Shown here: positions 2,451-20,021 of the stretch, in pieces
How the letters are laid out: every line of letters starts with the position of its first letter
Position numbering within the stretch: the stretch's first letter is position 1
IMG/VR virus record: IMGVR_UViG_3300047323_000485
Location: 1-20,021 of that record
Origin: a virus
Strand: one strand, 5' to 3'
Length of the DNA stretch: 20,021 nucleotides
Program-made: the position numbers and the translations under genes
Notes under the pieces: generated by a model
The model's input: the letters and a program-made list of their open reading frames with translations, nothing else
Told to the model about the DNA's origin: nothing
Databases searched by the model: none

Positions 2451-3232
2451 AGGTCATCCTTGGGCGCGGCCTGCTGCGCGGCGGCCGGTGCTGCGGCCTT
2501 GCTCGTGCCGGTCGTAGCCGCCTTGGCGTTCGCAGCGGCGGGCGTGTCCAGTTCAGCGAGCAGGCGCTCATAGTGCGCCCGGTAGCGTTCCTTGTTTTCG
2601 GGCGAAAACTTGTTGAACGCTGCCGACAGTTCGCGCACGCTTTTCGCGTCGCGCAGCAGCGGCGATTCTGCCGGGTTCGAGGGTGCCGGATTGCGCGGCC
2701 CGCTTGCCGGTTCCGACGAATAGCTCGGTCCATCCATCGGGCCGTCATCGTCAGGATGCGCGTCTAGATCATCATCGGCCGCGACGCCAAGCATCGGCCC
2801 GACGATGTAACGGCGTAGGTACGTGATATACCCACCGAAATCCTTCAACTCGCCCTCGCGGCCTCGCGGGACGTCGAGCGTCGCCTCAATTCGTGCGCCG
2901 CTGCTGTGACCGAGAATCGTGCGGATCATCACACCGCCTTTATCGCTCGGCTTGTTCGTCACCAGTTGCGTGAGCGCGAGGTTGTTCGCGGCGCGCCCGG
3001 CCTTCGTCTTGTCCAGAATTTCGGAAAGGTCCGCGTACTTGAACGAATAGGATGCCTTGCCCTCGCGCGCCTTGATAAATGCGCTCTGATTTTTGGTGAT
3101 GGCTTCGAACGCGCCCTGAGCGGCAGCGAGTGCCGCGAAGAAATCGCCCATGTGACCGTTAGGCAACGGGATCAGGTTCAGGTCAACAGCAGGGAAAGCC
3201 TGCTCGCGCGTCATTTCGAGAGGTGCATTCAT
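2447..3232 (-). CDS. erf: ERF-family single-strand annealing protein
   Basis: A 261-aa protein with the ERF (P22 essential recombination function) core at about 35-157: YSFKYADLSEILD (62-74), LALTQL (85-90), and the signature GGYITYLRRYIVGPMLGVAA (133-152) followed by DDD. ERF proteins form rings that anneal complementary single strands and circularise or recombine phage DNA. The C-terminal ~100 residues are low-complexity, rich in Pro/Ala/Ser, and end in KDDL, probably a flexible tail. The ribosome site GGGGAG lies 8 nt before ATG, inside the end of the upstream coiled-coil gene, and the next gene (exonuclease) starts within this one. Partnership with YqaJ is the standard arrangement. Confidence 0.92.
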   Translation of the reverse strand: MNAPLEMTREQAFPAVDLNLIPLPNGHMGDFFAALAAAQGAFEAITKNQSAFIKAREGKASYSFKYADLSEILDKTKAGRAANNLALTQLVTNKPSDKGGVMIRTILGHSSGARIEATLDVPRGREGELKDFGGYITYLRRYIVGPMLGVAADDDLDAHPDDDGPMDGPSYSSEPASGPRNPAPSNPAESPLLRDAKSVRELSAAFNKFSPENKERYRAHYERLLAELDTPAAANAKAATTGTSKAAAPAAAQQAAPKDDL

Positions 3233-3238
3233 GGCGGC

Positions 3239-4582
3239 TTACTCCCCTTGTGCGGTTGCAATGGCGGCGTCGATACGGTCGGCGAGGTCACTCGTCGGGA
3301 CGTGCGCGCGCGCTTCGATGAGCAGGTCGAGCAGCGTTTCTGCGACGGCCTCGGCACGCTCGCGGGCGACGCGTGCGGCTTCCTCTTTCTCGCTCTGGAT
3401 GCGTGCGGCCTCATCGCGTGCCGCCTGCTCGGCGGCTTCTGCTGCTTCGCGTGCCTCGCGTGCCGTGCGCTCTGCTGCCTCGCGCCGCTCGCGCTCGGCA
3501 TTTTCTGCGGCCGTAGCTGCCGCTTCATCGCGACGCTGCTTCTCCGCGCGCAGTTCGGCAAGTTCGGCAGCGTCGGCCGCTGCCTGACGTGCTGCTGCTT
3601 CGTTCTTCAGCGCAGCGTCGAGCATGGTTTGCAGGACATTGCGCGTGTTCTCGATAGCGGCCGTCGCTTCGCCCGCCAGTTCATCAAACGTGGCCGGGTC
3701 GGTCTGATCGATGCGCGCCAGCTTGCGCGAGATTGCCTCGCTCGTTGCATCGACAACAGTCGTGGAAGCAAGCTCGATGTTGTGGATGCGCTCGCGCAGT
3801 GCCTCCTTGCGCTCGCGTGCGAGGTCTGCCTGCTGCTGTTCGGCCTGCAACCGCGCCAGCGATTCGCGCGCCCTTGCGTTTTCGAGGTGCTGATTCAGCG
3901 TCGCAATGCTGGCGCGGATCGCATCAGTTGCGGCGGGCACGTACTCCTGCCAGTCGCGGCGCGCGAGGTAATCGAACGAGGAAATCTCGGCAATGACCTT
4001 GGCAATGGTTTCCGACGTAGCCGACAGATACTGCGTGGGCATGTCGGTGAGTACCTTGAGGGCGGCCGTGTGCCCCTCGATGCGCTCGCTCTCGATGCGA
4101 GCCTTGCGGATGCTTTCCTCTTTCTCTTTTGCCGTCTGCGCGTCAATCTGCTCTTTGATCGGCGTGAGAATCGAATCGACCTCGGCAACGATGTAATCGC
4201 GCTTGCCGCGCGCGTCAGCCGTCATTTCCAGAATCGGGCTGTTCCAGGCGGTGTACGCCTCCTTCATTTCCGTTTTCAGCTTGGACAGGCGCGAGGTGAC
4301 TTTCTTCGCCTGCTGCATGCCTTCCGGCGTTTCGACTGCGAACCGTGCGCCGTCGAGAAAGTGGTGCAGCGCTGCGATGTGCAGATCGCGTACCGGGTAT
4401 TGCAGCGGCGTGATGTTGGCGATGATTTCGCCCTCGCCGGTGACAAACGGCTTGTCAATAAACGGCTTGATTTTGAGGGGTTCCGGTGCCTCGACAATTG
4501 CCAGCGTGCGCGTGACGACGTCCATATCGTCGGCTGCGGCTGCGGTGTCGATCACTTCTGAAACGTCGCTCATGTTCGTCAT
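3239..4582 (-). CDS. Long coiled-coil protein of the recombination operon
   Basis: A 447-aa protein, not firmly assigned. Residues ~90-160 are helical and charged (KVTSRLSKLKTEMKEAYTAW, then KRDYIVAEVDSILTPIKEQI), a pattern like phage DUF1351-type proteins that accompany annealing proteins. Residues ~335-430 form an almost continuous Glu/Ala/Arg coiled coil (stretches such as AERERREAAERTAREAREAA). No catalytic motif was seen. It ends 6 bp before the ERF gene and shares its leftward transcript, so a structural or loading role beside the annealing protein is plausible but inferred. The strong periodic codon bias makes a long false frame on the opposite strand. Confidence 0.8.
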   Translation of the reverse strand: MTNMSDVSEVIDTAAAADDMDVVTRTLAIVEAPEPLKIKPFIDKPFVTGEGEIIANITPLQYPVRDLHIAALHHFLDGARFAVETPEGMQQAKKVTSRLSKLKTEMKEAYTAWNSPILEMTADARGKRDYIVAEVDSILTPIKEQIDAQTAKEKEESIRKARIESERIEGHTAALKVLTDMPTQYLSATSETIAKVIAEISSFDYLARRDWQEYVPAATDAIRASIATLNQHLENARARESLARLQAEQQQADLARERKEALRERIHNIELASTTVVDATSEAISRKLARIDQTDPATFDELAGEATAAIENTRNVLQTMLDAALKNEAAARQAAADAAELAELRAEKQRRDEAAATAAENAERERREAAERTAREAREAAEAAEQAARDEAARIQSEKEEAARVARERAEAVAETLLDLLIEARAHVPTSDLADRIDAAIATAQGE

Positions 4583-4626
4583 TTGGTGTCTCGCGTGGTG
4601 GTTGCGATGGAAAGGGCCGGGCGGCC

Positions 4627-4767
4627 TTACTGGGCGGTGACGCGGATTTTGCAGAGGCCGAACTTCGTCACGGCCTCATCCCATGCGTCAAAGCTATGTG
4701 CGGCGCGCGTGGTGTAGTGGCGCGCGATGCCTGCCCAGTTCGTTACGGTCACTGCAAACGTCAACAT
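4627..4767 (-). CDS. 46-aa hypothetical protein, first gene of the left operon
   Basis: Starting at the ATG at 4767 gives 46 residues (MLTFAVTVTNWAGIARHYTT to the end at KIRVTAQ). A good ribosome site (GAGGGAG, about 8 nt upstream) supports this start over an upstream in-frame ATG at 4875, which would lie in the promoter and operators. No family is recognised. It is the promoter-proximal gene of the leftward recombination operon, with a 44-bp gap to the coiled-coil gene. Small proteins in this position in phages are sometimes host-targeting inhibitors, but nothing in this sequence shows that. Confidence 0.65.
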   Translation of the reverse strand: MLTFAVTVTNWAGIARHYTTRAAHSFDAWDEAVTKFGLCKIRVTAQ

Positions 4768-4803
4768 TGCTCGCTCCCTCAGTAAGGTTTCCGGGACATA
4801 GAC

Positions 4804-4817
4804 ATAGATATGTCTAT
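4804..4817. promoter_or_regulatory. Left operator site 1
   Basis: ATAGATATGTCTAT, an imperfect 14-bp dyad of the family shared across the window (consensus near ATAGACGCGTCTAT). It lies just past the expected start of the leftward transcript. It is embedded in a longer perfect inverted repeat, CATAGACATA-ga-TATGTCTATG (4797-4818). Confidence 0.75.
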
Positions 4818-4825
4818 GAGGGACG

Positions 4826-4853
4826 ATTATAGATACATCAATAACGACGTCAA
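4826..4853 (-). promoter_or_regulatory. Leftward early promoter (PL-like)
   Basis: On the minus strand TTGACG (4853-4848) is followed after 16 bp by a perfect TATAAT (4831-4826), with an expected start near 4819. This is a strong sigma70-type promoter driving the recombination operon. An A/T tract (4876-4893) lies upstream where an UP element could sit. Operator dyads overlap the -10/spacer, flank the -35 and cover the start site, so repressor binding should block it. Confidence 0.8.
4829..4842. promoter_or_regulatory. Left operator site 2
   Basis: ATAGATACATCAAT overlaps the -10 element and spacer of the leftward promoter. Its centre is 25 bp from site 1 and 24 bp from site 3, close to the spacing of lambda operators that allows cooperative repressor binding. 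Confidence 0.7.
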
Positions 4854-4866
4854 TAGACGCGTCAAT
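4853..4866. promoter_or_regulatory. Left operator site 3
   Basis: ATAGACGCGTCAAT matches the shared consensus at 13 of 14 positions and sits directly upstream of the leftward -35 element. Confidence 0.75.
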
Positions 4867-5160
4867 GAAGCACACAAAAAAACCGGGTTTTTTGGCGAAC
4901 AGAGGGGGGTGTTGCAGGGATCAGACAGTTAAGTAAGGCTCAGATTATTTTTGACGTCGCCCCACGCAAGACTTTGTTGCGCTTGGTGACATAATTTTTG
5001 GGTAAGCCTTATGACTGACGTCTTTTATGCAATGAATCGGAAACGGAAGGAAGGTTCGTGAAAGGCGCAAGCGTTTGCACCTCGGAAACATGCGATGAAA
5101 GTAGGTAAGGTCTACCGAAGTGGCGCACCAATAGTATGCGCAAAGTGCAATCGTCAGAAC

Positions 5161-5186
5161 AAATGCCCGCTTGCGCGGGCATTTTT
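5161..5186. terminator. Bidirectional intrinsic terminator
   Basis: A perfect 10-bp stem (AAATGCCCGC / GCGGGCATTT) with a TTGC loop. It is followed by a T run on the plus strand (ATTTTTC) and a weaker one on the minus strand (ATTTGTTC). It lies about 60 bp past the repressor stop, so it probably ends the repressor transcript and insulates the left promoter. The better plus-strand T run would also stop any rightward transcript from the gap. Confidence 0.8.
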
Positions 5187-5208
5187 CTATGGTTAAATGC
5201 GACTCCCC

Positions 5209-5232
5209 TAACAAACACGTAAGCGTTTGTTA
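5209..5232. repeat. Inverted repeat just after the repressor gene
   Basis: TAACAAACAC and GCGTTTGTTA are 10-bp arms with one mismatch and a 4-bp spacer, starting 13 bp past the repressor stop. There is no T run on either side, so it is not a clear terminator. It may be an mRNA 3' structure or a protein site. Confidence 0.45.
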
Positions 5233-5244
5233 CAGAAGTGTGGG

Positions 5245-5976
5245 CTAACCCTGACGGTAAATGTAACGACCGATCAGCATGAGGCTCGCCGCCTTGTCGG
5301 CGGTGTACTCCTCATCGGGATAGCGGACCTTGTCCGGGTTATCGCACGAGAGAATAACGTGACCATCACTGCGCCGGAACACACGTTTGATGCGAGGCCC
5401 GTCCGGTGTGTCGAGCACGTAGATCAGGCCGTTCTCCAGGCGATCGGTTTGTGTTGTGTGAATTAGTACGGTGTCTCCATGCACGATGAAGTTTGCCCCG
5501 CTGTCCCCGTCTGCAATGACGGCACGCACATCATCCGGCTTAACCCCGAGCCGATCAAAAAAAGCCTGATCCTTGTAGACGCGGCCGACAGCCTTCTGAA
5601 TATCCGCCACGTCTGGCTTGCCGCTCGCATTGCCGCCACAACTGCCTCGCGAGGACGGAAGGAAATCAATTCTGTATTCCGGCTCGGTGCCGTGTGCAAA
5701 GGTGCGGCGCAAGCCACTTGGCTGTCCTGTTGGTTTCTTTTCCCCGAGCCCTGTTTCGAGCCATAACGCTGAGACGTTGAGGGCGTGTGCGAACGACCCG
5801 ATGCTGTAAGAGGTAGTCGACTCGTTTCGCTCCAGCGCTGAAATCGTTGGCTGAGTGACGCCAACGACTTTCGCAAGCGCTCCCTGTGAAAGCCCCATTT
5901 CGATCCGGCATTGGCGGATGCGGTCGCCCAACTGCGTGACGGGCGGCGGCGACTCGTGCGCGTTCTTTTTTGTCAT
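5245..5976 (-). CDS. CI-like phage repressor (XRE HTH plus S24/LexA-type domain)
   Basis: A 243-aa repressor. The ATG at 5976 is chosen because GAGAG lies 6 nt upstream and the HTH begins soon after; a longer frame would run into the operators. Residues ~16-72 form an XRE helix-turn-helix (IRQCRIEMGLSQGALAKVVG, then VTQPTISALERNES). Residues ~131-240 resemble the S24 domain: Ser159 in DGDSGANF and Lys197 in PRIKRVFR fit the Ser/Lys dyad, 38 residues apart. The usual D-S-M-x-P is altered to D-S-G-A-N. Cys113-Gly114 (GSCGG) is a candidate self-cleavage site, though 46 residues before Ser159 is longer than usual. It is divergent from the Cro-like gene and is the likely binder of the dyads described here. 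Confidence 0.9.
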   Translation of the reverse strand: MTKKNAHESPPPVTQLGDRIRQCRIEMGLSQGALAKVVGVTQPTISALERNESTTSYSIGSFAHALNVSALWLETGLGEKKPTGQPSGLRRTFAHGTEPEYRIDFLPSSRGSCGGNASGKPDVADIQKAVGRVYKDQAFFDRLGVKPDDVRAVIADGDSGANFIVHGDTVLIHTTQTDRLENGLIYVLDTPDGPRIKRVFRRSDGHVILSCDNPDKVRYPDEEYTADKAASLMLIGRYIYRQG

Positions 5977-12228: not shown

Positions 12229-12935
12229 AAAACAGAACAGCCGTAACGGACGCGCAGCGTGACGCACAGGTCCGGCAAGCCCTCAAGCGCTTCGTGCGCA
12301 ACAAGAACAAGCCTGAGGAACTGGAGAACTTGCGCTACAACCTGATCGTCGCGCGCGTCATGTCGGGTATGACCGCCGTTGAGGCGGCGCAGCGCTTTGG
12401 CTACAAGAACTCGACGCAGATCAGCCTCATTGAGTCGGGTGACCGGCCCACGCCGCGCGATCATCAGTTCCTGCGGCAAGCGTCTGAGGTCTATTCCGTC
12501 TCGTGCGATTTCCTGTTGGGGCTCTCGCCGCACATGGAGTACGACGGCCGCGTGGCGCATCAGCACGCCCTCATGCGCGGTACGGAGTCGATATTGGGCG
12601 GGATAGCCGCGCAGTTCGCCACGGTGATGATCCAGTTCACGCAGCAGACGCAGCCGGTCCCTGAGGACTTTGAGCGCGTCGCGACGGCCGCCGAAAAGGT
12701 CGGCAGCGCAATCGCAACCATGCGCGAGCGTTTCGGGCTCGATGAGGTGCTAGGCAGTGCAACGCTGCTCGCCGCATCTGAAGAACTCAGCAAGGCAGTC
12801 GAGCCGCTTCGCCAGAAGGTGATGCGCTACCGCGCCATCGACAGCTATTTCGATGAGATGCGCGCCGGGAAGCTGCAACCCATTCAATACCTCACCGAAC
12901 GCTACAGCCAGCAAGAGCTAGGGCTCGACGGCTGA
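12225..12935 (+). CDS. XRE-type DNA-binding regulator, 236 aa
   Basis: Residues ~36-100 form a helix-turn-helix (LIVARVMSGMTAVEAAQRFG, then YKNSTQISLIESGDRPTP) followed by the usual packing helices (DHQFLRQASEVYSVSCDFLL). The long C-terminal part (~105-230) is helical with no peptidase motif, so it is not a second LexA-type repressor; it may be a dimerisation or effector domain. Lying last before the terminase genes, it is well placed to act as a late-gene regulator, but this is inference. It overlaps the DUF1367 gene by 4 bp. Confidence 0.78.
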   Translation: MKNRTAVTDAQRDAQVRQALKRFVRNKNKPEELENLRYNLIVARVMSGMTAVEAAQRFGYKNSTQISLIESGDRPTPRDHQFLRQASEVYSVSCDFLLGLSPHMEYDGRVAHQHALMRGTESILGGIAAQFATVMIQFTQQTQPVPEDFERVATAAEKVGSAIATMRERFGLDEVLGSATLLAASEELSKAVEPLRQKVMRYRAIDSYFDEMRAGKLQPIQYLTERYSQQELGLDG

Positions 12936-12971
12936 CGCACGCATACGCACGCACACACGTAAGGAAACACG

Positions 12972-13790
12972 ATGGCAACTCGCAAGACACCGGGCGGGCG
13001 GCGCGCAGGGAAGGGCGCACCGGATCAGCAGCCCGCCAATGAGCCGGTAAAGCAGCCCGGTAAGCAGCCGCGCAAGGCACCCGCGCAGAAGGGCAAGGCC
13101 AAGCCTCAGGCGGCGCGCAAGGTGCCTGCAAAGAAGGCCGCCAAGGCACCGGCACGCGGTAAGGGTGCCAATCCGCTGAAAGACGGCACGCCCGCACCGA
13201 TGCCGCCCGTAGAGAAGAAAGAGACGGCCAGTGTGCTCAAGCGACTGGTGGGGCGTCCGACTGTCTACCGCGATGAGTTCGTGGACATGATCCTTGTGTT
13301 CTTTCGCATCGACATTGAACGGCAGGTAGAGGTGACAAAGCCGGGACCGGACGGTAAGCCAATGAGCGTCACTGAGATTGTGCTCAATCGCTTCCCGACT
13401 CTCGAACGCTTCGCCGACTCAATCGGGGTCACGCGTCAGACCCTGCACGATTGGTCCGTGTCCACGGAAAAGGACGGCAAGACGCTCAAGCACCCGGAAT
13501 TTTCTTACGCCTACGCGCGCGCGCGCGACCTGCAAGCCGCTTTGCTTCAGGAGGGCGGGATAGGCGGGCAGTATGAATCGCGGGTCGCAACCCTTGCGCT
13601 TAAGAACATCGCAGGCTGGCGCGAGCAGGTCGAGCAGCAGGTGACAACAACTCTCACCACTGCGACAACGGATGAACTGAACGCCGTATATGCGGAAGGT
13701 ATCGAGCGGTCGCGGCGTGCTCGCGCAGAGGCAGAGGCCCGCAGGCAGGCGGAATTGCAGCTAGGTGAACAGAGCGGGCAGGGCGAGTAA
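12972..13790 (+). CDS. Terminase small subunit with basic N-terminal tail
   Basis: A 272-aa protein with AAGGAAA before the ATG. Residues 1-~70 are rich in Lys/Ala/Pro (segments like KQPRKAPAQKGKAKPQAARK and VPAKKAAKAPARGKG), resembling histone H1 tails. Residues ~94-230 match phage DNA-packaging small subunits: GRPTVYRDEFVDMILVF, a helix-turn-helix TLERFADSIGVTRQTLHDWS (143-162), HPEFSYAYARARDLQAALLQ (174-193), then IGGQYESRVATLALKNIAGW. It would bind the packaging site and regulate the large subunit. It is directly followed by that subunit with no gap. The tail is unusual and may help bind DNA. Confidence 0.85.
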   Translation: MATRKTPGGRRAGKGAPDQQPANEPVKQPGKQPRKAPAQKGKAKPQAARKVPAKKAAKAPARGKGANPLKDGTPAPMPPVEKKETASVLKRLVGRPTVYRDEFVDMILVFFRIDIERQVEVTKPGPDGKPMSVTEIVLNRFPTLERFADSIGVTRQTLHDWSVSTEKDGKTLKHPEFSYAYARARDLQAALLQEGGIGGQYESRVATLALKNIAGWREQVEQQVTTTLTTATTDELNAVYAEGIERSRRARAEAEARRQAELQLGEQSGQGE

Positions 13791-15347
13791 GTGGCGATAT
13801 CCCGTATCACGCTGCCGCTGGACCCGCGCTACAAGGCGTTCGTAGAGCGGTACGCGTTCGATTGCACCCGGTTCGCTATCGAGGTGTGCGGGCTCGCCGC
13901 GCCGACGTGGCAGCAGATCGAACTGTTCAGCAGCGTCAGCGAGCCGGGCTCGCGCACGTCGGTATCGTCGGGCCACGGTACGGGCAAGACGTCCGGCTTT
14001 GCCATCATCGCCTTGTGGCACCTGCTCTGCTACTTCTGCTCGAACACGATTCTTACCGCGCCAAAGATCAAGACGGTGTCGGACGGCGTCTGGAAAGAGT
14101 TCGCCGACCTTTCGACCAAAATCCAGAACGGGCCGCAATCGTGGGTGCGCGACTACTTCGAAATTGAGTCAGAGCGCGTCTATGTGAAGGGCTTCAAGCT
14201 CAATTGGTTCGTGATCGCGAAGACCGCACCGCGTGGCGCACCGGAAAACCTCGCCGGTGCTCACCGTGACTGGCTCCTGTGGCTCGCCGATGAGGCGTCC
14301 GGTATTCCCGATGCGAACTTTGGCGTTATCACTGGCTCGCTGACGGACGCGAACAACCGCATTGCCATTGCGTCGCAGCCGACCCGGCCGACGGGCTTTT
14401 TCTATGACACGCATCACCGGCTGTCCAGAAGCAAGGGCGAAATGTGGAATGCCCTCGTGTTCAACAGCGAGGACTCGCCGATTGTGTCGTCGGCGTTCAT
14501 TCTGGAAAAGCGCTCCCAGTACACCGACGAAGAATACTCGATCAAGGTGCGCGGCGAGTTCCCTGAGAACAGCAGCCGCTTTCTGCTCGGACCCAAGGCT
14601 ATCGAGGCCTGCAAGGGGCTCGAAGTCATCAAGCCGGGCGAGCCCTACGGCTGGCTCTTGCCGCTCGACGTCGGCGGCGGCGGCTATCGCGACTGGTCGG
14701 TTATGCCCGCGTTCAAGATCGCAGGCCAGGGCGAATACGGCCCGGACGCGCGCCGCGCACAGCTCGCGACCGTGCCGCTGCACTCGAACAGCGTCAACCC
14801 GGCCGAACTGCATGGGCACGTCGTCACGGCCGCGCGCGAGCGTGCGAACTCATCCGCGCTGATCGACGCGGGCGGCATGGGCCTCATCGTCTGCAAGCAA
14901 CTGGACCTTGACGGCTTCGCCAACTACAGCAAGGTCAACTGGGGCAATCCGAACTTCGCCAACGAATACAAGGAACGCTATTTCAATCAGCGCGCGCAGG
15001 CCATTTGCGGGCTGTCTCGCGCGGTGCAGGAAGGCCGGTTCGGTATCTCCAAGGACGTGCCTAGCGGCTTCGTCTCCAAGCTCGTAGAGCAGGGCTCGCG
15101 CATCCCGTACAGCTATGACGAAAAGGCCCGGCGCGTGATCGCGAAGAAAGAGGACATGCGCAAGGAAGGCATTCCCTCGCCGGACATTTGGGACACGTGC
15201 GCGTTCGTGTTTCTCGAACAGGCGCATGTCTCGCTCGCAGAGGACTTTGACACCGGCCCGACGGCCGACACCAAGGCCGCCGCACGTGCGCGCGTGATGG
15301 ACAGATTGCGGGCTCGAACCGCAGAGAACGCCGCTCAGGCGAACTAG
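13791..15347 (+). CDS. Terminase large subunit (packaging ATPase and nuclease)
   Basis: A 518-aa protein from a GTG directly after the small-subunit stop. Walker A is GHGTGKT (61-67), Walker B WLLWLADEA (161-169) with Asp167/Glu168, and the coupling region lies around ASQPTRPTG (194-202). The C-terminal RNase H-like nuclease shows LPLDVGGGG (Asp293), ALIDAGGMG (Asp359) and PDIWDTCAF near residue 475, giving the acidic triad. It drives ATP-dependent DNA packaging into the prohead and cuts the concatemer. Length and motifs are complete. The next genes are small unknown proteins rather than the portal gene usually found here. Confidence 0.95.
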   Translation: MAISRITLPLDPRYKAFVERYAFDCTRFAIEVCGLAAPTWQQIELFSSVSEPGSRTSVSSGHGTGKTSGFAIIALWHLLCYFCSNTILTAPKIKTVSDGVWKEFADLSTKIQNGPQSWVRDYFEIESERVYVKGFKLNWFVIAKTAPRGAPENLAGAHRDWLLWLADEASGIPDANFGVITGSLTDANNRIAIASQPTRPTGFFYDTHHRLSRSKGEMWNALVFNSEDSPIVSSAFILEKRSQYTDEEYSIKVRGEFPENSSRFLLGPKAIEACKGLEVIKPGEPYGWLLPLDVGGGGYRDWSVMPAFKIAGQGEYGPDARRAQLATVPLHSNSVNPAELHGHVVTAARERANSSALIDAGGMGLIVCKQLDLDGFANYSKVNWGNPNFANEYKERYFNQRAQAICGLSRAVQEGRFGISKDVPSGFVSKLVEQGSRIPYSYDEKARRVIAKKEDMRKEGIPSPDIWDTCAFVFLEQAHVSLAEDFDTGPTADTKAAARARVMDRLRARTAENAAQAN

Positions 15348-15355
15348 GAAAACCG

Positions 15356-15631
15356 ATGGACGGTAAGGAAAAAACGCTCTCGATAATCAGCCGTGCAGAT
15401 GCAGCGGCGGCCGGGCTTGTCCGGTTCTTCACCGGCAAGGCATGCCGTCACGGCCATACGGTCGAGCGCTATGTGAAGTCAGGGCTGTGTGTGGAGTGCA
15501 ACCGCGCACGCTCGCGGGTGACGGTCAAGGCGCACTACGGCCGCCACAAGCAACGGATTCTGGACAGCAAGCGCGTGTACTACGCGACGAAGAAACAGCA
15601 GCAACAGGCCGCCACGCAGGCGACGGAATAA
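15356..15631 (+). CDS. Small zinc-finger-like phage protein, 91 aa
   Basis: Starts 8 bp after the terminase stop. The core GKACRHGHTVERYVKSGLCV followed by ECNRAR gives a C-x2-G-H ... C-x2-C metal site of a type frequent in phage proteins with HNH/endonuclease-VII-like zinc fingers, but no nuclease residues follow. The C-terminus is basic and Gln-rich (KKQQQQAATQ). It may bind DNA near the packaging machinery; unproven. Confidence 0.7.
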   Translation: MDGKEKTLSIISRADAAAAGLVRFFTGKACRHGHTVERYVKSGLCVECNRARSRVTVKAHYGRHKQRILDSKRVYYATKKQQQQAATQATE

Positions 15632-15651
15632 CCCTCAACCAACCCATAACT

Positions 15652-16209
15652 ATGACGAACAAGGTAATCGCGCTGACGGCTCTCGACGGCAGCAAGTGGC
15701 ATATCCCCGCCAAGGTCGTAGAGGGCTCGTATAACGCCTACTACAAGGGCAAACGCGTTGCGGATGATGATGACCTGATCGACTGGGCTCAGAACAATAT
15801 GAACTGGTCGGACGTCAAGGCACACGCGGTGCAGGTGCAGGAAGCCGACGAAAACAACATGGAAGATTCGTGGGTGAATGGCGAAATGGAAGCTATCGAC
15901 GCGCCGCCGCCTGAGCCCTCAGAGCCGCCCGCGCCGCGCGCGCCTGCCGTCGCTCAGGCATTCCCTATCGCCCGCAAGATGCCGACCAATGCGCTCGACA
16001 AGCTCTTTCAGAAAGCGGGCCTCGTGCGCGGTGTCGAGACGTCGATTGTGCTTGGTCACGATGCCGACCCGCTCGAAGTGATTCAGGCCATTGCCGTCGA
16101 CAGTCTCCAGACGGAAAAGACGCAAGAGCGTCGCCTCGTGCTCGAAGCGATCCGCCTGGCATGCGAGCGCACGATTGCCCTGCAACAACCGGCGCAGGTG
16201 AAGGCATGA
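15652..16209 (+). CDS. Hypothetical protein, 185 aa, two domains with Pro-rich linker
   Basis: The ATG at 15652 is chosen; upstream in-frame codons overlap the zinc-finger gene. No clear ribosome site is seen. Residues 1-~75 form a small domain (KVIALTALDGSKWHIPAKVV; DDDLIDWAQNNMNW). About 83-103 is a Pro/Glu/Ala linker (APPPEPSEPPAPRAPAV), and ~105-183 is helical (NALDKLFQKAGLVRG; RRLVLEAIRLACERTIALQQ). No family is recognised. The stop overlaps the next ATG (ATGA), starting a chain of coupled genes. Confidence 0.7.
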   Translation: MTNKVIALTALDGSKWHIPAKVVEGSYNAYYKGKRVADDDDLIDWAQNNMNWSDVKAHAVQVQEADENNMEDSWVNGEMEAIDAPPPEPSEPPAPRAPAVAQAFPIARKMPTNALDKLFQKAGLVRGVETSIVLGHDADPLEVIQAIAVDSLQTEKTQERRLVLEAIRLACERTIALQQPAQVKA

Positions 16210-16586
16210 GCGCGGCCGACGTCATGCAGAAACTGACGGTCGCGCGTCCTGAAGATACGGTTTTCATTTCGCTGCCGGGGGAAATGACAGCAGCGGAAGC
16301 GCACGACTTCACAACCGACCTCGGCAGGGAACTGTTCAAGGCGCACCGGGACGGAAAGCCCACGCCGCATTGTGTCGTCATGCGCGGCGGCGGCATCGCG
16401 TTCGCCAAGGGCGTTGCGGACCTCATGACGCGCGCCGACATGCTGGCCATCTACAACGGCATGAAAGAGGACGCGCCCGCGATCCTCGCGAACGTCGAGC
16501 CGGGCGATCACGGTGATGCGATTCTGGAAGCGTTCGGGCGGCGCGTGATCGAGGCGGCAATGCTGCGCATGGGGGAACTGGAATGA
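16206..16586 (+). CDS. Hypothetical protein, 126 aa
   Basis: Starts at the ATG overlapping the previous stop by 4 bp. The sequence (KLTVARPEDTVFISLPGEMT, then AAEAHDFTTDLGRELFK) alternates strands and helices and includes CVVMRGGGIAFAKG, a glycine-rich turn, but no nucleotide-binding motif can be claimed. The last 40 residues are helical. Not recognised; coupled to both neighbours by ATGA overlaps. Confidence 0.7.
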   Translation: MSAADVMQKLTVARPEDTVFISLPGEMTAAEAHDFTTDLGRELFKAHRDGKPTPHCVVMRGGGIAFAKGVADLMTRADMLAIYNGMKEDAPAILANVEPGDHGDAILEAFGRRVIEAAMLRMGELE

Positions 16587-17059
16587 TCCGCAGTCTCATG
16601 AAGGCTTTCCGCGCCCACCGCGCGCAGCGGCGCAATGACCAGTTTGCGCTCGCATCGTACCGCTCGCACATTCCCCTGTTGCGTCGCTGGCTCGCGGATA
16701 TGCCCGACGTCTGCGCGCTGCTGGATCAACTGGCATACGAGGCGGGCGACAAAGGTATCGACGCAAGCCTGCGCTGCTGTGGTCCAGGCGAACTGCGCGA
16801 CCGGCTGCGCGACGCTCGCCGCGCGCAGCACCGCGCCGCGCACGAAAAGACGCTCAGGGACGCACTCTCGCACCTGCGAGTGCTCGCGCGTGAGATTGAC
16901 GGAGTGGACCCGAAATGGGCCGATGAGCGGCGGCGCGCCTCTCTAACTGGCGGCTCCCTGACGCTCGGCGAACTGCGCGCCGCCAAGCGCTTTCTTGACC
17001 GTATCGACCTTGAGCGAATCACCGCTCGTGAAAAGACAACCAAAGGGGAAAAGGCATGA
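16583..17059 (+). CDS. Hypothetical Arg-rich helical protein, 158 aa
   Basis: Starts at the ATG overlapping the previous stop. It is almost entirely helical and rich in Arg/Ala/Leu (FRAHRAQRRNDQFALASYRS; GELRDRLRDARRAQHRAAHE), with a basic character suggesting nucleic-acid or membrane-surface contact. No membrane helix or catalytic motif is visible. It overlaps the membrane-protein gene by 4 bp. Confidence 0.68.
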   Translation: MIRSLMKAFRAHRAQRRNDQFALASYRSHIPLLRRWLADMPDVCALLDQLAYEAGDKGIDASLRCCGPGELRDRLRDARRAQHRAAHEKTLRDALSHLRVLAREIDGVDPKWADERRRASLTGGSLTLGELRAAKRFLDRIDLERITAREKTTKGEKA

Positions 17060-17637
17060 TGGGTATCGCACTGGTTCTGGCGTTGAACTTCGTCGTTAGC
17101 TGGATCAACTGTTGGTCTGTGGGCGGCATCTGGCGCGAGTCGCGCGCACTGGGCGGATGGGTGCGCCTCGTAGCGTGGTGCGCAGCCGCACAATCGGTGA
17201 TCGGCTTTAGCAGCGTGTTCGGCTTCATCGCAGGCTATGCGCTCGTGACGGCCGGTTACCTGCCTATGGCGGCGGCAAAGGCGGCGGCCTCGCTTTGGTA
17301 TCTCATCGTGATCCTGCCCGCCATCGGCACCGGCCTCGTGCTCACTATCCAGTCGTGGATTGTCGCGTTTCGCACGCGGCGGATTCTGGACATGGGCGTC
17401 GCGGCATACAACACCTATGCGCAGGTGCGCAACATGGCAGGCGCACTCGAAGGCATCGGCGATGCGTTCTCCAGCCTGGGCGATTTCCTCAAATCGGACA
17501 AAGACGATGAGGGCGGCGCGCTCGTGCTGCTCGTGATCCTGCTCGTGCTGTTCGCGCTCGCGGGCGGCTTCATCCTTACGGCCGTCCTGATTCGCCGCTA
17601 CTCGCGCCGCCTGTCGATGCCGCAAGAGGTTGCATAA
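17056..17637 (+). CDS. Four-helix membrane protein, 193 aa
   Basis: Four hydrophobic segments are visible: ~2-23 (MGIALVLALNFVVSWINCWS), ~40-68 (including AAAQSVIGFSSVFGFIAGYA), ~80-105 (LWYLIVILPAIGTGLVLTIQ) and ~155-179 (ALVLLVILLVLFALAGGFIL), ending RRYSRRLSMPQEVA. Between helices 3 and 4 is an amphipathic, partly acidic loop (KSDKDDEGG). Basic residues at both ends of the last helix suggest a cytoplasmic C-terminus. It is not a recognisable holin. A membrane protein just after terminase might serve superinfection exclusion or a lysis-related role; both are guesses. Confidence 0.75.
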   Translation: MMGIALVLALNFVVSWINCWSVGGIWRESRALGGWVRLVAWCAAAQSVIGFSSVFGFIAGYALVTAGYLPMAAAKAAASLWYLIVILPAIGTGLVLTIQSWIVAFRTRRILDMGVAAYNTYAQVRNMAGALEGIGDAFSSLGDFLKSDKDDEGGALVLLVILLVLFALAGGFILTAVLIRRYSRRLSMPQEVA

Positions 17638-17639
17638 GC

Positions 17640-17744
17640 ATGGGCCTCAATCCGTGGCTCGCATGGGCTCTTTTCTGGCAGGTGATGACAAAGGCCTGCA
17701 ACCCCTTCAATCCGCAACAGACAACGCAGCAGGTGAAAGAATGA
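17640..17744 (+). CDS. 34-aa microprotein
   Basis: An ATG 2 bp after the membrane-protein stop opens a 34-codon frame: MGLNPWLAWALFWQVMTKAC then NPFNPQQTTQQVKE. Its TGA overlaps the next ATG (ATGA, 17741-17744), matching the coupling pattern of the rest of the cassette. The Trp-rich hydrophobic N-terminal half could insert in a membrane. The exact fit between neighbours is the main evidence that it is translated. Confidence 0.6.
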   Translation: MGLNPWLAWALFWQVMTKACNPFNPQQTTQQVKE

Positions 17745-18544
17745 GCGACATTCGAGACGAATTGCTGGCGGCAAACCCGCATGCTTTTGACAAGGTCCGC
17801 TACGGCGGTGCCAGCAGCGCGCACGCGCACGGCGTCACGCTCCAACCCGGCGCGCACGCACATGAAACGGAACATGTGCACGTCGTGACGCCTGGTGACT
17901 ACTGGAAGCCCGGCCAGCACTCGCACGGTACGCCTGGGGCGGTGCTCGTGCAGGGCATGCTCGATGCGAACGGCGGCGCGCTCGATACGCTCATCGGCCT
18001 CGTTGAGCGCGGCCCGTTGTGGGATGGCGACGTGCCAAGCAAGGCGGGCCGTGAAACGCTGTTCGAGTACGGGCTCGCGGCGCGCGTCATTGTCGACGGC
18101 GAGGAAGGCTTTACAGCGGCCACGTATGCGGGCGCGGCGGCCTTCACGCAGCGTTACGGCGGCGGGAACATCAGGCAGGCCATGCAGGCGCGCAAAACGG
18201 CCCGCAACGCGTCCCGCGCCGTCAGCGAGAGCGTTCGGTATGCGGTGATGGTCGGTGACCTCGTGGTGTCGCATTTGATGCTTCCGCCCGGCCGCGAGGG
18301 CAAAGAGGTGCGACTCACGGTTGAGGGCGTCGAATCGACCGCGCTTGTCGGCCGCCTTGTGGCTGATCCTGCGCCGATGATGCGCGTATGCGACGGCCCT
18401 CATGTGGATAGAACCGGCCCTGCTCGCGCGTGCAATTGCCATCCGGGCATGTGCGCCGACCTGAGCGGCATGAAGTGCGCGCAACCGCACCTGTGCGGCG
18501 GCAATCAGCATCGAGTGCATTTCACCGGCGTTGGCGGCGCGTGA
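17741..18544 (+). CDS. His- and Cys-rich phage protein, 267 aa
   Basis: Starts at the ATG overlapping the microprotein stop. Residues ~27-62 are packed with histidines (AHAHG, HAHETEHVHV, QHSHG). The centre (PSKAGRETLFEYGLAARVIV, then AATYAGAAAF) resembles a family of short phage proteins of unknown role. The C-terminus has a Cys/His cluster (RACNCHPGMC, KCAQPHLCGG) fit for zinc. It looks like a fusion of metal-binding ends to that core. A role in metal sequestration or virion assembly is speculative. Confidence 0.7.
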   Translation: MSDIRDELLAANPHAFDKVRYGGASSAHAHGVTLQPGAHAHETEHVHVVTPGDYWKPGQHSHGTPGAVLVQGMLDANGGALDTLIGLVERGPLWDGDVPSKAGRETLFEYGLAARVIVDGEEGFTAATYAGAAAFTQRYGGGNIRQAMQARKTARNASRAVSESVRYAVMVGDLVVSHLMLPPGREGKEVRLTVEGVESTALVGRLVADPAPMMRVCDGPHVDRTGPARACNCHPGMCADLSGMKCAQPHLCGGNQHRVHFTGVGGA

Positions 18545-18741
18545 TGATTGCGGCCGTCATCGCCCTTTGCGTGCTGCTCGTGCTCGCCCTCATCGGGTGG
18601 GCATGGTGCGCGGATGCCTGCGCGTCGCACCGCGAGCGCGCCGACAAGCTCGAACAGTACAACGGATGGCTCGAAACCCGCGAGGCGCTCGTGACCCGTC
18701 AACTCGCCCAACTGCGGGCGCAACTTCAGGAACCGCAGTGA
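18544..18741 (+). CDS. Single-pass membrane protein with coiled-coil tail, 65 aa
   Basis: The ATG at 18544 shares one base with the previous TGA; a GTG at 18541 is an alternative. Residues 2-22 form one membrane helix (IAAVIALCVLLVLALIGWAW), then a charged helical tail (HRERADKLEQYNGWLETREA). This is an inner-membrane spanin-like outline, but it is shorter than known Rz proteins and no outer-membrane partner is nested here, so it is left unnamed. Confidence 0.68.
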   Translation: MIAAVIALCVLLVLALIGWAWCADACASHRERADKLEQYNGWLETREALVTRQLAQLRAQLQEPQ

Positions 18742-18742
18742 T

Positions 18743-19069
18743 ATGCGCGAACTGATACTGATCGGCGTGTGGTCCGTCGAAATGACGGCCATGATCGCGC
18801 GGGCGTTGGGCGACGGCTCGCGCATCGTGGTGATGGACGCGCCGCCTGAGCGGCTTGTCGATGACCTCTCGCGCGACCGGCTCGACCTGCTCAAGCCGTT
18901 CGATATCGACCGCCTGCTAGGCCGCTATGACGTCGAGCCGTGCGCAGTATCGGCCGAACCATTCGAGCGGCACAGCGAGGCCGGAAACCTGCGCCGCGAG
19001 CATCACTGGCGCGAGAAGCAGACGCGCTCAATGATTAACGCGCGCATGAAGGCGCAGCGGCGCAAATAG
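18743..19069 (+). CDS. Hypothetical protein, 108 aa, end of cassette
   Basis: Starts 1 bp after the previous stop. The N-terminus (RELILIGVWSVEMTAMIARA) resembles the first strand and helix of a Rossmann-like fold, but the loop is not a standard nucleotide-binding motif. The middle (LDLLKPFDIDRLLGRY) is helical and the tail is basic (MINARMKAQRRK). It is the last gene before the 710-bp gap. Not recognised. Confidence 0.68.
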   Translation: MRELILIGVWSVEMTAMIARALGDGSRIVVMDAPPERLVDDLSRDRLDLLKPFDIDRLLGRYDVEPCAVSAEPFERHSEAGNLRREHHWREKQTRSMINARMKAQRRK

Positions 19070-19145
19070 GCGCGTCGCCGTGGCGATTGTTCTCGCAGAG
19101 CGCCAGATACGCGACACTATCTCGCGAGAAGTTGTAACGAGGTAT

Positions 19146-19172
19146 TTGACAAACGGACCTTTGTGCTAAATT
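19146..19172 (+). promoter_or_regulatory. Strong promoter with extended -10, possible late promoter
   Basis: TTGACA (19146-19151) and TAAATT (19167-19172) are 15 bp apart, with TGC directly before the -10, an extended -10 form that tolerates short spacing. The expected start is near 19179. No operator dyad overlaps it, so it is probably constitutive. Confidence 0.65.
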
Positions 19173-19191
19173 TGTAGTGCGCGTTTGGCAG

Positions 19192-19213
19192 GCCGCCCGG
19201 CGAACCGGGCGGC
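19192..19213 (+). terminator. GC-rich hairpin near the start of the leader
   Basis: GCCGCCCGG and CCGGGCGGC form a perfect 9-bp stem with a CGAA loop, followed only by TTACC. It may be the terminator of the upstream operon, or a pause/antitermination structure about 15 nt into the leader RNA. Confidence 0.55.
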
Positions 19214-19328
19214 TTACCACTAGCCACTCATCGCATGATGATGTGGATTACGGCCAAACAGCCGTAAAAAAACGCCTCTACGTAGCGCGCGCACATGGGA
19301 TCTCTCCTATCAAAGTGCGTTACACAAT

Positions 19329-19374
19329 GCGGCCCGCCCCAAGTTTCCTAGGCCGAAGGCGGGCCGCTCCTTTA
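19329..19374 (+). terminator. Second GC-rich hairpin, likely terminator
   Basis: GCGGCCCGCC (19329-19338) and GGCGGGCCGC (19358-19367) are exact 10-bp complements around a 19-nt loop, followed by TCCTTTAT. The T run is modest but the stem is very stable. Confidence 0.6.
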
Positions 19375-19479
19375 TGGGATTCGTGCTGCAATCCCCAATT
19401 CATCCTAAACCCTTTTAAATTTTTTTTCACGAACTACGTTGTGAAAATCGCGCCACAGCTAGCACTGGCCTACCTCTGC

Positions 19480-19508
19480 TTGATGACGTAAAGCCTTTGC
19501 TGTATAGG
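19480..19508 (+). promoter_or_regulatory. Candidate promoter for the downstream gene
   Basis: TTGATG (19480-19485) and TATAGG (19503-19508) are 17 bp apart, upstream of the gene beginning at 19780. The long leader (about 265 nt) weakens the call. Confidence 0.35.
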
Positions 19509-19779
19509 CTTGCGCGCGTATGTACTTTTACGCACATACGCAGAGCACGCTGTTTGCCTGCATACATTACTTCGTCTTGCGCGTGCCTGCGGTGTATGTG
19601 ACTCACTTAATGCGCGCATCGCTTGCGACGACTGCGTTCTCGCTGTGTTACAGCGCATGTGCGCTAACGCGCATTTTCTGCAGACCGTCGATTCGCGACC
19701 TCGCCCAATACTCCCATCGTCACGTTGTTCGCGATAATCTGCATCATGTCCGGGCATCGGCCTATCCTTGGAGCGCTCA

Positions 19780-20021
19780 ATGCCGCAATACCGATACGAA
19801 GTCGAGCCGCGTACCGAATCCGTCGGCGGCGGCTATCAACTGCGCCTGTTCGAGGACGATACGGAAATGGGCGGCGGCGTGTTCCCGGCCGACCGGCATA
19901 AGGAACCGTACAAGGGCGTCGCGTGGTTCAACAGCCTGCCGGAAAAGGAGCGCGCGCGCTGGCTGAAAGAGGCGAAAAGCGCGCGGCCAATTGATGGCTG
20001 GGGCGCGTACCTGCAAATGCT
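19780..20021 (+). CDS. Hypothetical phage protein (C-terminus beyond window)
   Basis: The ATG at 19780 has GGAG 6 nt upstream and opens a frame of at least 80 residues to the window edge: MPQYRYEVEPRTESVGGGYQ, then LRLFEDDTEMGGGVFPADRH, then LPEKERARWLKEAKS. The pattern looks like a small phage protein of unknown role with an N-terminal beta hairpin and a charged helix. It is the first gene after the 710-bp gap, so it may open the next (late or lysis) unit. Partial; function unknown. Confidence 0.7.
   Translation, partial: MPQYRYEVEPRTESVGGGYQLRLFEDDTEMGGGVFPADRHKEPYKGVAWFNSLPEKERARWLKEAKSARPIDGWGAYLQM

Follow-up and report, generated by a model that had tools for sequence, protein, structure and literature searches.

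Nine genes behind a PacB-type terminase

The IMG/VR virus record IMGVR_UViG_3300047323_000485, 20,021 bases long, was analyzed in its entirety and is referred to below as the window. Behind the genes for the small and large terminase subunits (TerS and TerL), it carries a block of nine small genes, here named g1 to g9, which an initial annotation had read as a possible membrane-based exclusion, defense, or lysis-timing system. The terminase genes and the genes of the block are listed here (sizes in amino acids [aa]; L numbers denote loci in related elements, described in the next section).

12972..13790, plus strand: TerS (PacA position), 272 aa; a homologue adjoins TerL in relatives, and the counterpart on plasmid pBVIE05 is phrog_309 (terminase small subunit)
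13791..15347, plus strand: TerL of the PacB family, 518 aa; phrog_2 (terminase), E 4e-28; Walker A motif SGHGTGKT
15356..15631, plus strand: g1, 91 aa, zinc knuckle and basic helix, proximal anchor; phrog_1081, E 2e-20, and phrog_1035 (endonuclease VII), E 3.6e-5
15652..16209, plus strand: g2, 185 aa, N-terminal domain g2N (~1-83, NMNWSDV motif) and C-terminal domain g2C (~112-178); phrog_17928, E 3e-8; AlphaFold2 (AF2) model
16206..16586, plus strand: g3, 126 aa, conserved C-terminal PGDHGDAI domain; homologues in 6 of 14 relatives
16583..17059, plus strand: g4, 158 aa, Arg-rich helical protein in a variable slot; found in L009 and L010 (2 of 14)
17056..17637, plus strand: g5, 193 aa, predicted polytopic membrane protein with five long helices; phrog_37671; AF2 model
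17640..17744, plus strand: g6, 34-aa microprotein; homologues in L002, L087, and L010
17741..18544, plus strand: g7, 267 aa, His-rich HxH segment, core at ~77-168, Cys-rich tail; phrog_4365, E 5e-10
18544..18741, plus strand: g8, 65 aa, predicted transmembrane segment (1-28) and short coiled coil; homologues in L002 and L087
18743..19069, plus strand: g9, 108 aa, basic tail, distal anchor; found in 9 of 14 relatives

All nine plus-strand open reading frames (ORFs) within positions 15356-19069 were called by two codon-usage gene callers. Each has homologues on other contigs, so they are more than chance ORFs, and the run of nine genes is real, as initially described. They mostly appear to evolve under constraint, with Ka/Ks values of 0.12 to 0.61. 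Compared with the nearest relative of the window, the Paraburkholderia locus L002, the value is 0.12 for g1, 0.28 for g2, and 0.45 to 0.61 for g3, g6, g7, g8, and g9, that for g6 being weak, as it covers 34 codons only; g5 scores 0.19 against pBVIE05 and g4 scores 0.60 against L010. The genes do form a coupled run, but its description as mostly joined by ATGA overlaps was overstated: four of the eight junctions are -4 overlaps (ATGA) and one is a -1 overlap (TGATG), the remaining gaps measuring 20, 2, and 1 bases. Overlaps of -4 also join 4 of the 21 same-strand pairs in the window outside the block and are therefore a habit of this genome, not a block-specific mark. A scan of positions 12900-20021 found no promoter; terminator-like sites in the same interval numbered 13, versus 7.0 (standard deviation, 3.2) in shuffled sequences.

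The initial descriptions of the proteins were borne out: a zinc knuckle and basic helix in g1, two domains in g2, Arg richness in g4, four hydrophobic segments predicted from the sequence of g5, a conserved 34-aa microprotein in g6, His and Cys richness in g7, and one transmembrane segment with a coil in g8. None is recognizably structural, with no head or tail PHROG among g1 to g9 at E values up to 1. Searches of Pfam, PHROGs, PADLOC, NCBIfam, and Rfam produced no functional assignment for any of the nine, nor did a PDB sequence search limited to g5; among stray matches, the strongest was that of g8 to the type II secretion GspM model (E 0.0012, 18.6 bits versus a cut-off of 60).

TerL of the window shows 35 to 36% identity over ~470 aa to PacB of P1, P7, and D6 (E ~1e-73 to 1e-76), 42% to its counterpart in Xanthomonas phage Rb1, 73% to that on the 88-kb plasmid pBVIE05 of Burkholderia vietnamiensis G4, and 89% to that on a contig of Paraburkholderia sp. 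C35. By this homology to PacB, the window phage is classed as P1-like, and it is most probably a phage-plasmid of Burkholderiaceae. A RepB-type initiator is encoded on pBVIE05; in the window, RdgC-, RecE-like exonuclease-, and Erf-type genes run opposite to the terminase operon.

This assignment bears on the expectation that a portal gene should follow the terminase. The premise of a missing portal fails because TerL belongs to the P1 PacB family, in which the portal is sited elsewhere. In P1, pacB occupies 91.7-93.2 kb, with c1, coi, imcB, and imcA coming next on the other strand, and prt, which encodes the portal, is at 17.3-19.0 kb; in the assay of one study (PMC10695390), prt, pacA, and pacB are listed among the essential genes and c1 and coi among the nonessential ones. 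Eight relatives with the same terminase (records of 82 to 98 kb) were searched genome-wide, and all eight have the portal, separated from TerL by 32 to 55 kb in the linear record; if these records are circular, the other arc measures at least 36 kb. The pBVIE05 portal (phrog_1497, E 1e-173) and TerL are 35 kb apart. These distances are those of the relatives, the window itself being too short to show a portal.

The lysis genes are likewise located elsewhere. A lysis-timing cassette, in which g8 would be an i-spanin-like protein and g5 a holin or antiholin, agrees with the topology of g8, whose match to an Rz-like PHROG reaches E 0.026 only. However, the holin, GH19 endolysin, and Rz-like spanin of pBVIE05 form their own cassette ~20 kb from TerL, the GH19 endolysin family was found in seven of the eight relatives and never closer to TerL than 18 kb, measured along the shorter arc, and PHROG profiles revealed no endolysin or holin among g1 to g9. 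We regard this possibility as extremely improbable and treat both the missing portal and the lysis cassette as false leads.

Composition of the block in related elements

The block was compared in 28 loci and the window. Presence counts use the 14 relatives in which the sequence read downstream of TerL exceeds 7 kb (L002, L087, L010, L003, L005, L091, L093, L094, L006, L096, L007, L009, L100, and L035). Left out were loci with less than 7 kb behind TerL (L004, L088, L092, L095, and L097), those lacking a full-length TerL call (L030, L090, L098, L099, and L101), and four loci that are more distant (L032, L037, L038, and L039); L004 is cited for gene fusions only. Among the 14 relatives, g9 is found in 9, g1 in 8 (L093 has its basic helix only), g2N in 7, g3 in 6, g2C in 5, g7 in 4, g5 in 3 (one a remnant), g6 in 3, and g4 and g8 in 2 each. 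None of the nine families is found behind TerL in four relatives (L005, L091, L094, and L007), a single relative has eight of the nine, and none has all nine. The composition of the block thus varies, and the block is a variable island in related phages, a possibility that the initial annotation proposed to check by a synteny survey.

The same slot accommodates a variety of other small genes. These include a DUF3307 membrane protein in L010 (E 5e-8; the profile was scanned in this locus only), with a look-alike, recognized by eye, in L087, members of the N4 gp49/Sf6 gp66 family (Phage_gp49_66) in L003 (E 8.5e-15) and L087 (E 4e-11), an HNH protein in L009, and coiled coils. L002 has proteins with two to three transmembrane segments and a lipobox protein in this slot. 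The latter is a 68-aa protein encoded within the block at 15069-15275, with a lipobox-like start (LSGC).

The closest comparisons illustrate this turnover. The Paraburkholderia sp. C35 contig (NZ_QBUY01000024.1; 93,160 bases) has 8 of the 9 families in the same order but differs from the window in having a coiled coil in the place of g4, a 71-aa remnant of g5, and three additional membrane or lipobox genes. On pBVIE05 (CP000621), genes Bcep1808_7699-7693 behind TerL retain the order g1, g2N, g5, and g9, with g5 78% identical to that of the window, whereas g2C, g3, g4, g6, g7, and g8 are not recognized and other small genes are found there. The P1 pacA-pacB region shares with the window a PacB-type terminase without a portal next to it but has c1, coi, imcB, and imcA next to pacB on the other strand. 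Independent evidence for an accessory site behind pacB comes from PMC6906374, which reports that P1-like plasmids have ORFs inserted between pacB and c1.

Two findings speak for one membrane-based exclusion or defense system made up of all nine genes: the genes are coupled, and every one of the seven complete blocks from relatives (L002, L087, L010, L003, L009, L100, and L035) encodes one or more predicted membrane proteins, although these are not the same in all blocks. However, the genes are not coinherited across the 14 relatives, members such as g5 and the g7 core are found in other places unaccompanied by the rest, and no defense family was matched at a convincing E value, the best PADLOC hits being low-scoring ones of g2 (E 0.01) and g4 (E 0.027). 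A single nine-gene machine is therefore unsupported, and we consider it very unlikely.

The domains of g2 and g3 occur in different combinations. The g2N and g2C domains are fused in the window, L002, and L087 but are encoded by two genes, that for the C domain leading, in L003, L004, L009, and L100; g2N is fused instead to the C-terminal PGDHGDAI domain of g3 in L003, L004, L010, and L100, and L009 encodes all three as separate genes. Because these domains are fused and split differently between relatives, they may work together, and the alternate fusions suggest, better than any other feature of the block, that some of its members do so. An N-terminal domain of g3, proposed by eye to have a gene of its own in L003, L004, and L009, was rejected, as a profile search for it performed no better than shuffled controls.

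Taken together, these observations make it probable that the block forms the distal, accessory end of one transcription unit with TerS and TerL in a P1-like phage. Its conserved anchors are g1, just behind TerL, and g9, at the end; the soluble domains g2N, g2C, and g3 are semiconserved, and the middle and distal part is variable, with small soluble and membrane proteins swapped between relatives. All nine genes would be translated together with the terminase through start/stop coupling. The products of g1 to g3 might be soluble helpers on the nucleic-acid or terminase side, with g2N, g2C, and g3 in one complex, and g5 and the slot's remaining membrane proteins might each be useful on their own as accessory genes for superinfection exclusion or host takeover, acquired one at a time and not as parts of a nine-component machine. 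On this reading, the site behind PacB-type terminases is an accessory slot in the Burkholderiaceae relatives of P1. The initial interpretation is partly supported as a whole. The block looks like a fast-changing assembly of small phage protein families that also turn up in other contexts, an ordinary kind of feature.

Several points weigh against this reading. Retention of g2N behind TerL in 7 of the 14 relatives and of g3 in 6 exceeds what would be expected of a random cargo slot, and the coupling could reflect a required stoichiometry. The argument from domain fusions is one of association and shows no mechanism, and the host and plasmid state of the window phage are read from its relatives alone.

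The g5 and g2N families

The interest of the block lies in the families of g5 and g2N, two large phage protein families without a Pfam model for which it provides testable handles, and in the link of g2N to a pseudo-terminase. No description of either family was found in Pfam or in nonexhaustive literature searches (for pBVIE05 and for a terminase pseudoenzyme).

The g5 protein matches phrog_37671 over residues 1-192 (E 6.9e-94). Its family was found at 41 loci on viral contigs of 8.6 to 607 kb and spans P1-like elements and jumbo phages. Homologues are encoded by the jumbo phages BcepSauron and BcepSaruman (54% identity), Pseudomonas phages Dolphis and UAntarctica, Enterobacter phage phiT5282EW, Aeromonas phage ST4, and a 595-kb uncultured phage; among plasmids, a match was found in pBVIE05 only. 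The members of phrog_37671 from BcepSauron, Dolphis, UAntarctica, phiT5282EW, and ST4 are 44 to 54% identical to g5 over at least three quarters of its length but, unlike in the window, have no terminase ahead of them in the fetched stretches. An alignment of 33 sequences (32 homologues of 170 to 230 aa from the 41 loci, with duplicates removed, plus the window) has 17 invariant columns, including Gly, Trp, and Asn positions, and yielded a confident AF2 model with five helices (pLDDT 92.6, pTM 0.85). Foldseek matched this model to nothing in PDB or BFVD at E <= 0.001, and the best Z-score in a second look, 9.8 over 81 residues, is in the common range of the tool for helical bundles. Neither for g5 nor for g2 (see below) does the lack of fold matches mean a new fold.

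The position of g5 is not fixed. TerL is present in 3 of the 48 fetched stretches around g5 (which include duplicates, such as BcepSauron twice, and two, L049 and L062, in which g5 was uncalled), and in one genome of the TerL clade g5 lies 14 kb from TerL on the opposite strand. Neighbor clustering over these stretches revealed no constant partner, the commonest neighbor family (~240 aa, with a phosphatase annotation in two of the named phages) being found in five. In L002, g5 is reduced to an in-frame 71-aa remnant that retains the first and last parts, and six of the eight relatives searched genome-wide have no match; g5 is therefore dispensable.

Our leading guess for g5 is superinfection exclusion or another host-membrane role. 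In its strict form, g5, with or without g6 and g8, would be a stand-alone superinfection-exclusion or host-membrane takeover protein, unrelated to the remaining block, that inserts into the inner membrane and either keeps the DNA of competing phages from entering or changes the membrane. Such a role would suit a conserved, position-independent membrane family that occurs in many types of large phages, is lost in some relatives, evolves under constraint (Ka/Ks 0.19-0.25), and has invariant Gly, Trp, and Asn residues and a confident five-helix model; the neighbors of g5 in ST4, a methyltransferase and a phosphatase, may also represent an early accessory region. However, exclusion finds no support in PADLOC, Pfam, or fold matches, and the carriers include phages of 262 kb and more, in which g5 may have other membrane roles. 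We view the strict form as tentative and rather doubtful.

The g2N domain is likewise widespread. Residues 13-83 of g2 match the C-terminal domain of phrog_17928 (E 3.1e-8), and a profile scan found g2N at at least 83 viral-contig loci, of which 80 were kept; none of 46 aligned proteins matched a Pfam family. An AF2 model of g2, built from 39 of 59 g2N proteins, six relatives, and the window, has a confident N domain (block means of 82 to 96 over residues 1-90) and a helical C domain. It had no Foldseek match in PDB at E <= 0.001, and its C-terminal helices gave a best second-look Z-score of 7.0, again common for helical bundles. At 72 loci examined outside the terminase group, the domain gene was called in 68 and uncalled in 4. 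Among the 68, g2N is typically a stand-alone protein of ~100 aa (59 loci) but carries an N- or C-terminal extension at 8 and is fused to a PacB-like region in L159. The C terminus of phrog_5902 shares the NMNWSDV domain with that of phrog_17928; unlike in g2 of the window, it is fused in these families to a recombination-operon coiled coil or a PacB-like ATPase region. In Xanthomonas phages SAC and CP2, g2N forms the C terminus of a coiled-coil protein, whose gene in SAC adjoins those for Erf recombinase, an exonuclease, and a single-stranded DNA-binding protein.

In P1-like elements of Escherichia coli, g2N is the C terminus of a 364- to 366-aa pseudo-terminase, as in these two cases.

L126 (MH422554), 3194-4288: PacB-like ATPase region with degraded Walker motifs, g2N replacing the nuclease
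L127 (NZ_CP104667), 4188-5288: same architecture

The first 270 residues of this protein are PacB-like (35% identity, E 2e-49), but it lacks an intact Walker A motif, the DE of Walker B, and the entire nuclease domain. At least 80% of its length is covered by matches in at least 162 plasmid records. The gene preceding the pseudo-terminase in an intact relative encodes a protein 97% identical to P1 IsaA (residues 57-320). In P1 itself, isaA and IS1 correspond to L211 2070-3032 and 3127-3894, and the similarity to the intact pair of isaA-like and pseudo-terminase genes ends near IS1, so the pseudo-terminase partner seems to have been lost in P1.

The products of g1, g2, and g3 might form a complex that regulates PacB-type packaging, by acting in pac cutting, headful completion, or DNA-end handling. 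Their genes lie directly behind TerL, g1 resembles zinc proteins of the endonuclease VII type, fusions are exchanged among g2N, g2C, and g3, and g2N replaces the nuclease domain of a degenerate PacB paralogue and, in Xanthomonas phages, is joined to a coiled coil next to the Erf recombinase. On the other hand, g2N is mostly found alone with no terminase nearby, and 4 of the 14 TerL relatives carry none of g1 to g3; such a terminase helper seems unlikely. A broader proposal, to which we give still less credence, is that g2N is a module, unrecognized but widespread in phages, that docks onto machines acting at DNA ends (terminase and recombinases), replaces the nuclease in the P1-like pseudo-terminase, and, with g2C, g3, and g1, forms a packaging regulator or a decoy against competing phages. 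With or without such roles, g2N has repeatedly been fused to other proteins, including a degenerate terminase found on at least 162 plasmid records.

Other genes of the block and its surroundings

The remaining families provide fewer clues. The similarity of g1 to endonuclease VII (E 3.6e-5) is in the zinc knuckle, and no His-Me catalytic motif was seen by eye in 11 sequences. The core of g7, possibly winged-helix-like, is a gene of 87 to 152 aa in all 15 other loci examined, some of which are near-identical contigs; its analogue in L003 has a weak PadR match (E 0.069). Repeated HxH/GHSHG motifs are found in g7 of the window (17741-18544) and in L002 at 13591-14358; we take them to resemble phage tail-fiber repeats. 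No match to g8 was found in the phages searched. In g9, the first strand appears to be Rossmann-like and the basic tail, by eye, conserved.

At the left end of the window, a minus-strand frame that runs off the record (2-661) appears ParB-like by eye. TerL itself varies among the relatives: the 657-aa TerL of L100 (8988-10961) has an intein-like insert in its Walker A motif, and a Hint-domain homing endonuclease is annotated on TerL of two other plasmids. In Pseudomonas phage-plasmids, extra TerL-like fragments immediately precede the real TerL (L038, 9120-9908; L039, 6387-7682 and 9203-9925); none of them matches an intact Walker A motif. Behind the block, positions 19070-19767 (~700 bases) have no called plus-strand gene and no Rfam match to a noncoding RNA, and comparison with the fetched loci showed no similarity until the next gene begins. 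The GC content of this gap is 0.54, versus 0.60 to 0.62 in the gaps of 480 to 1148 bases behind the block in relatives.

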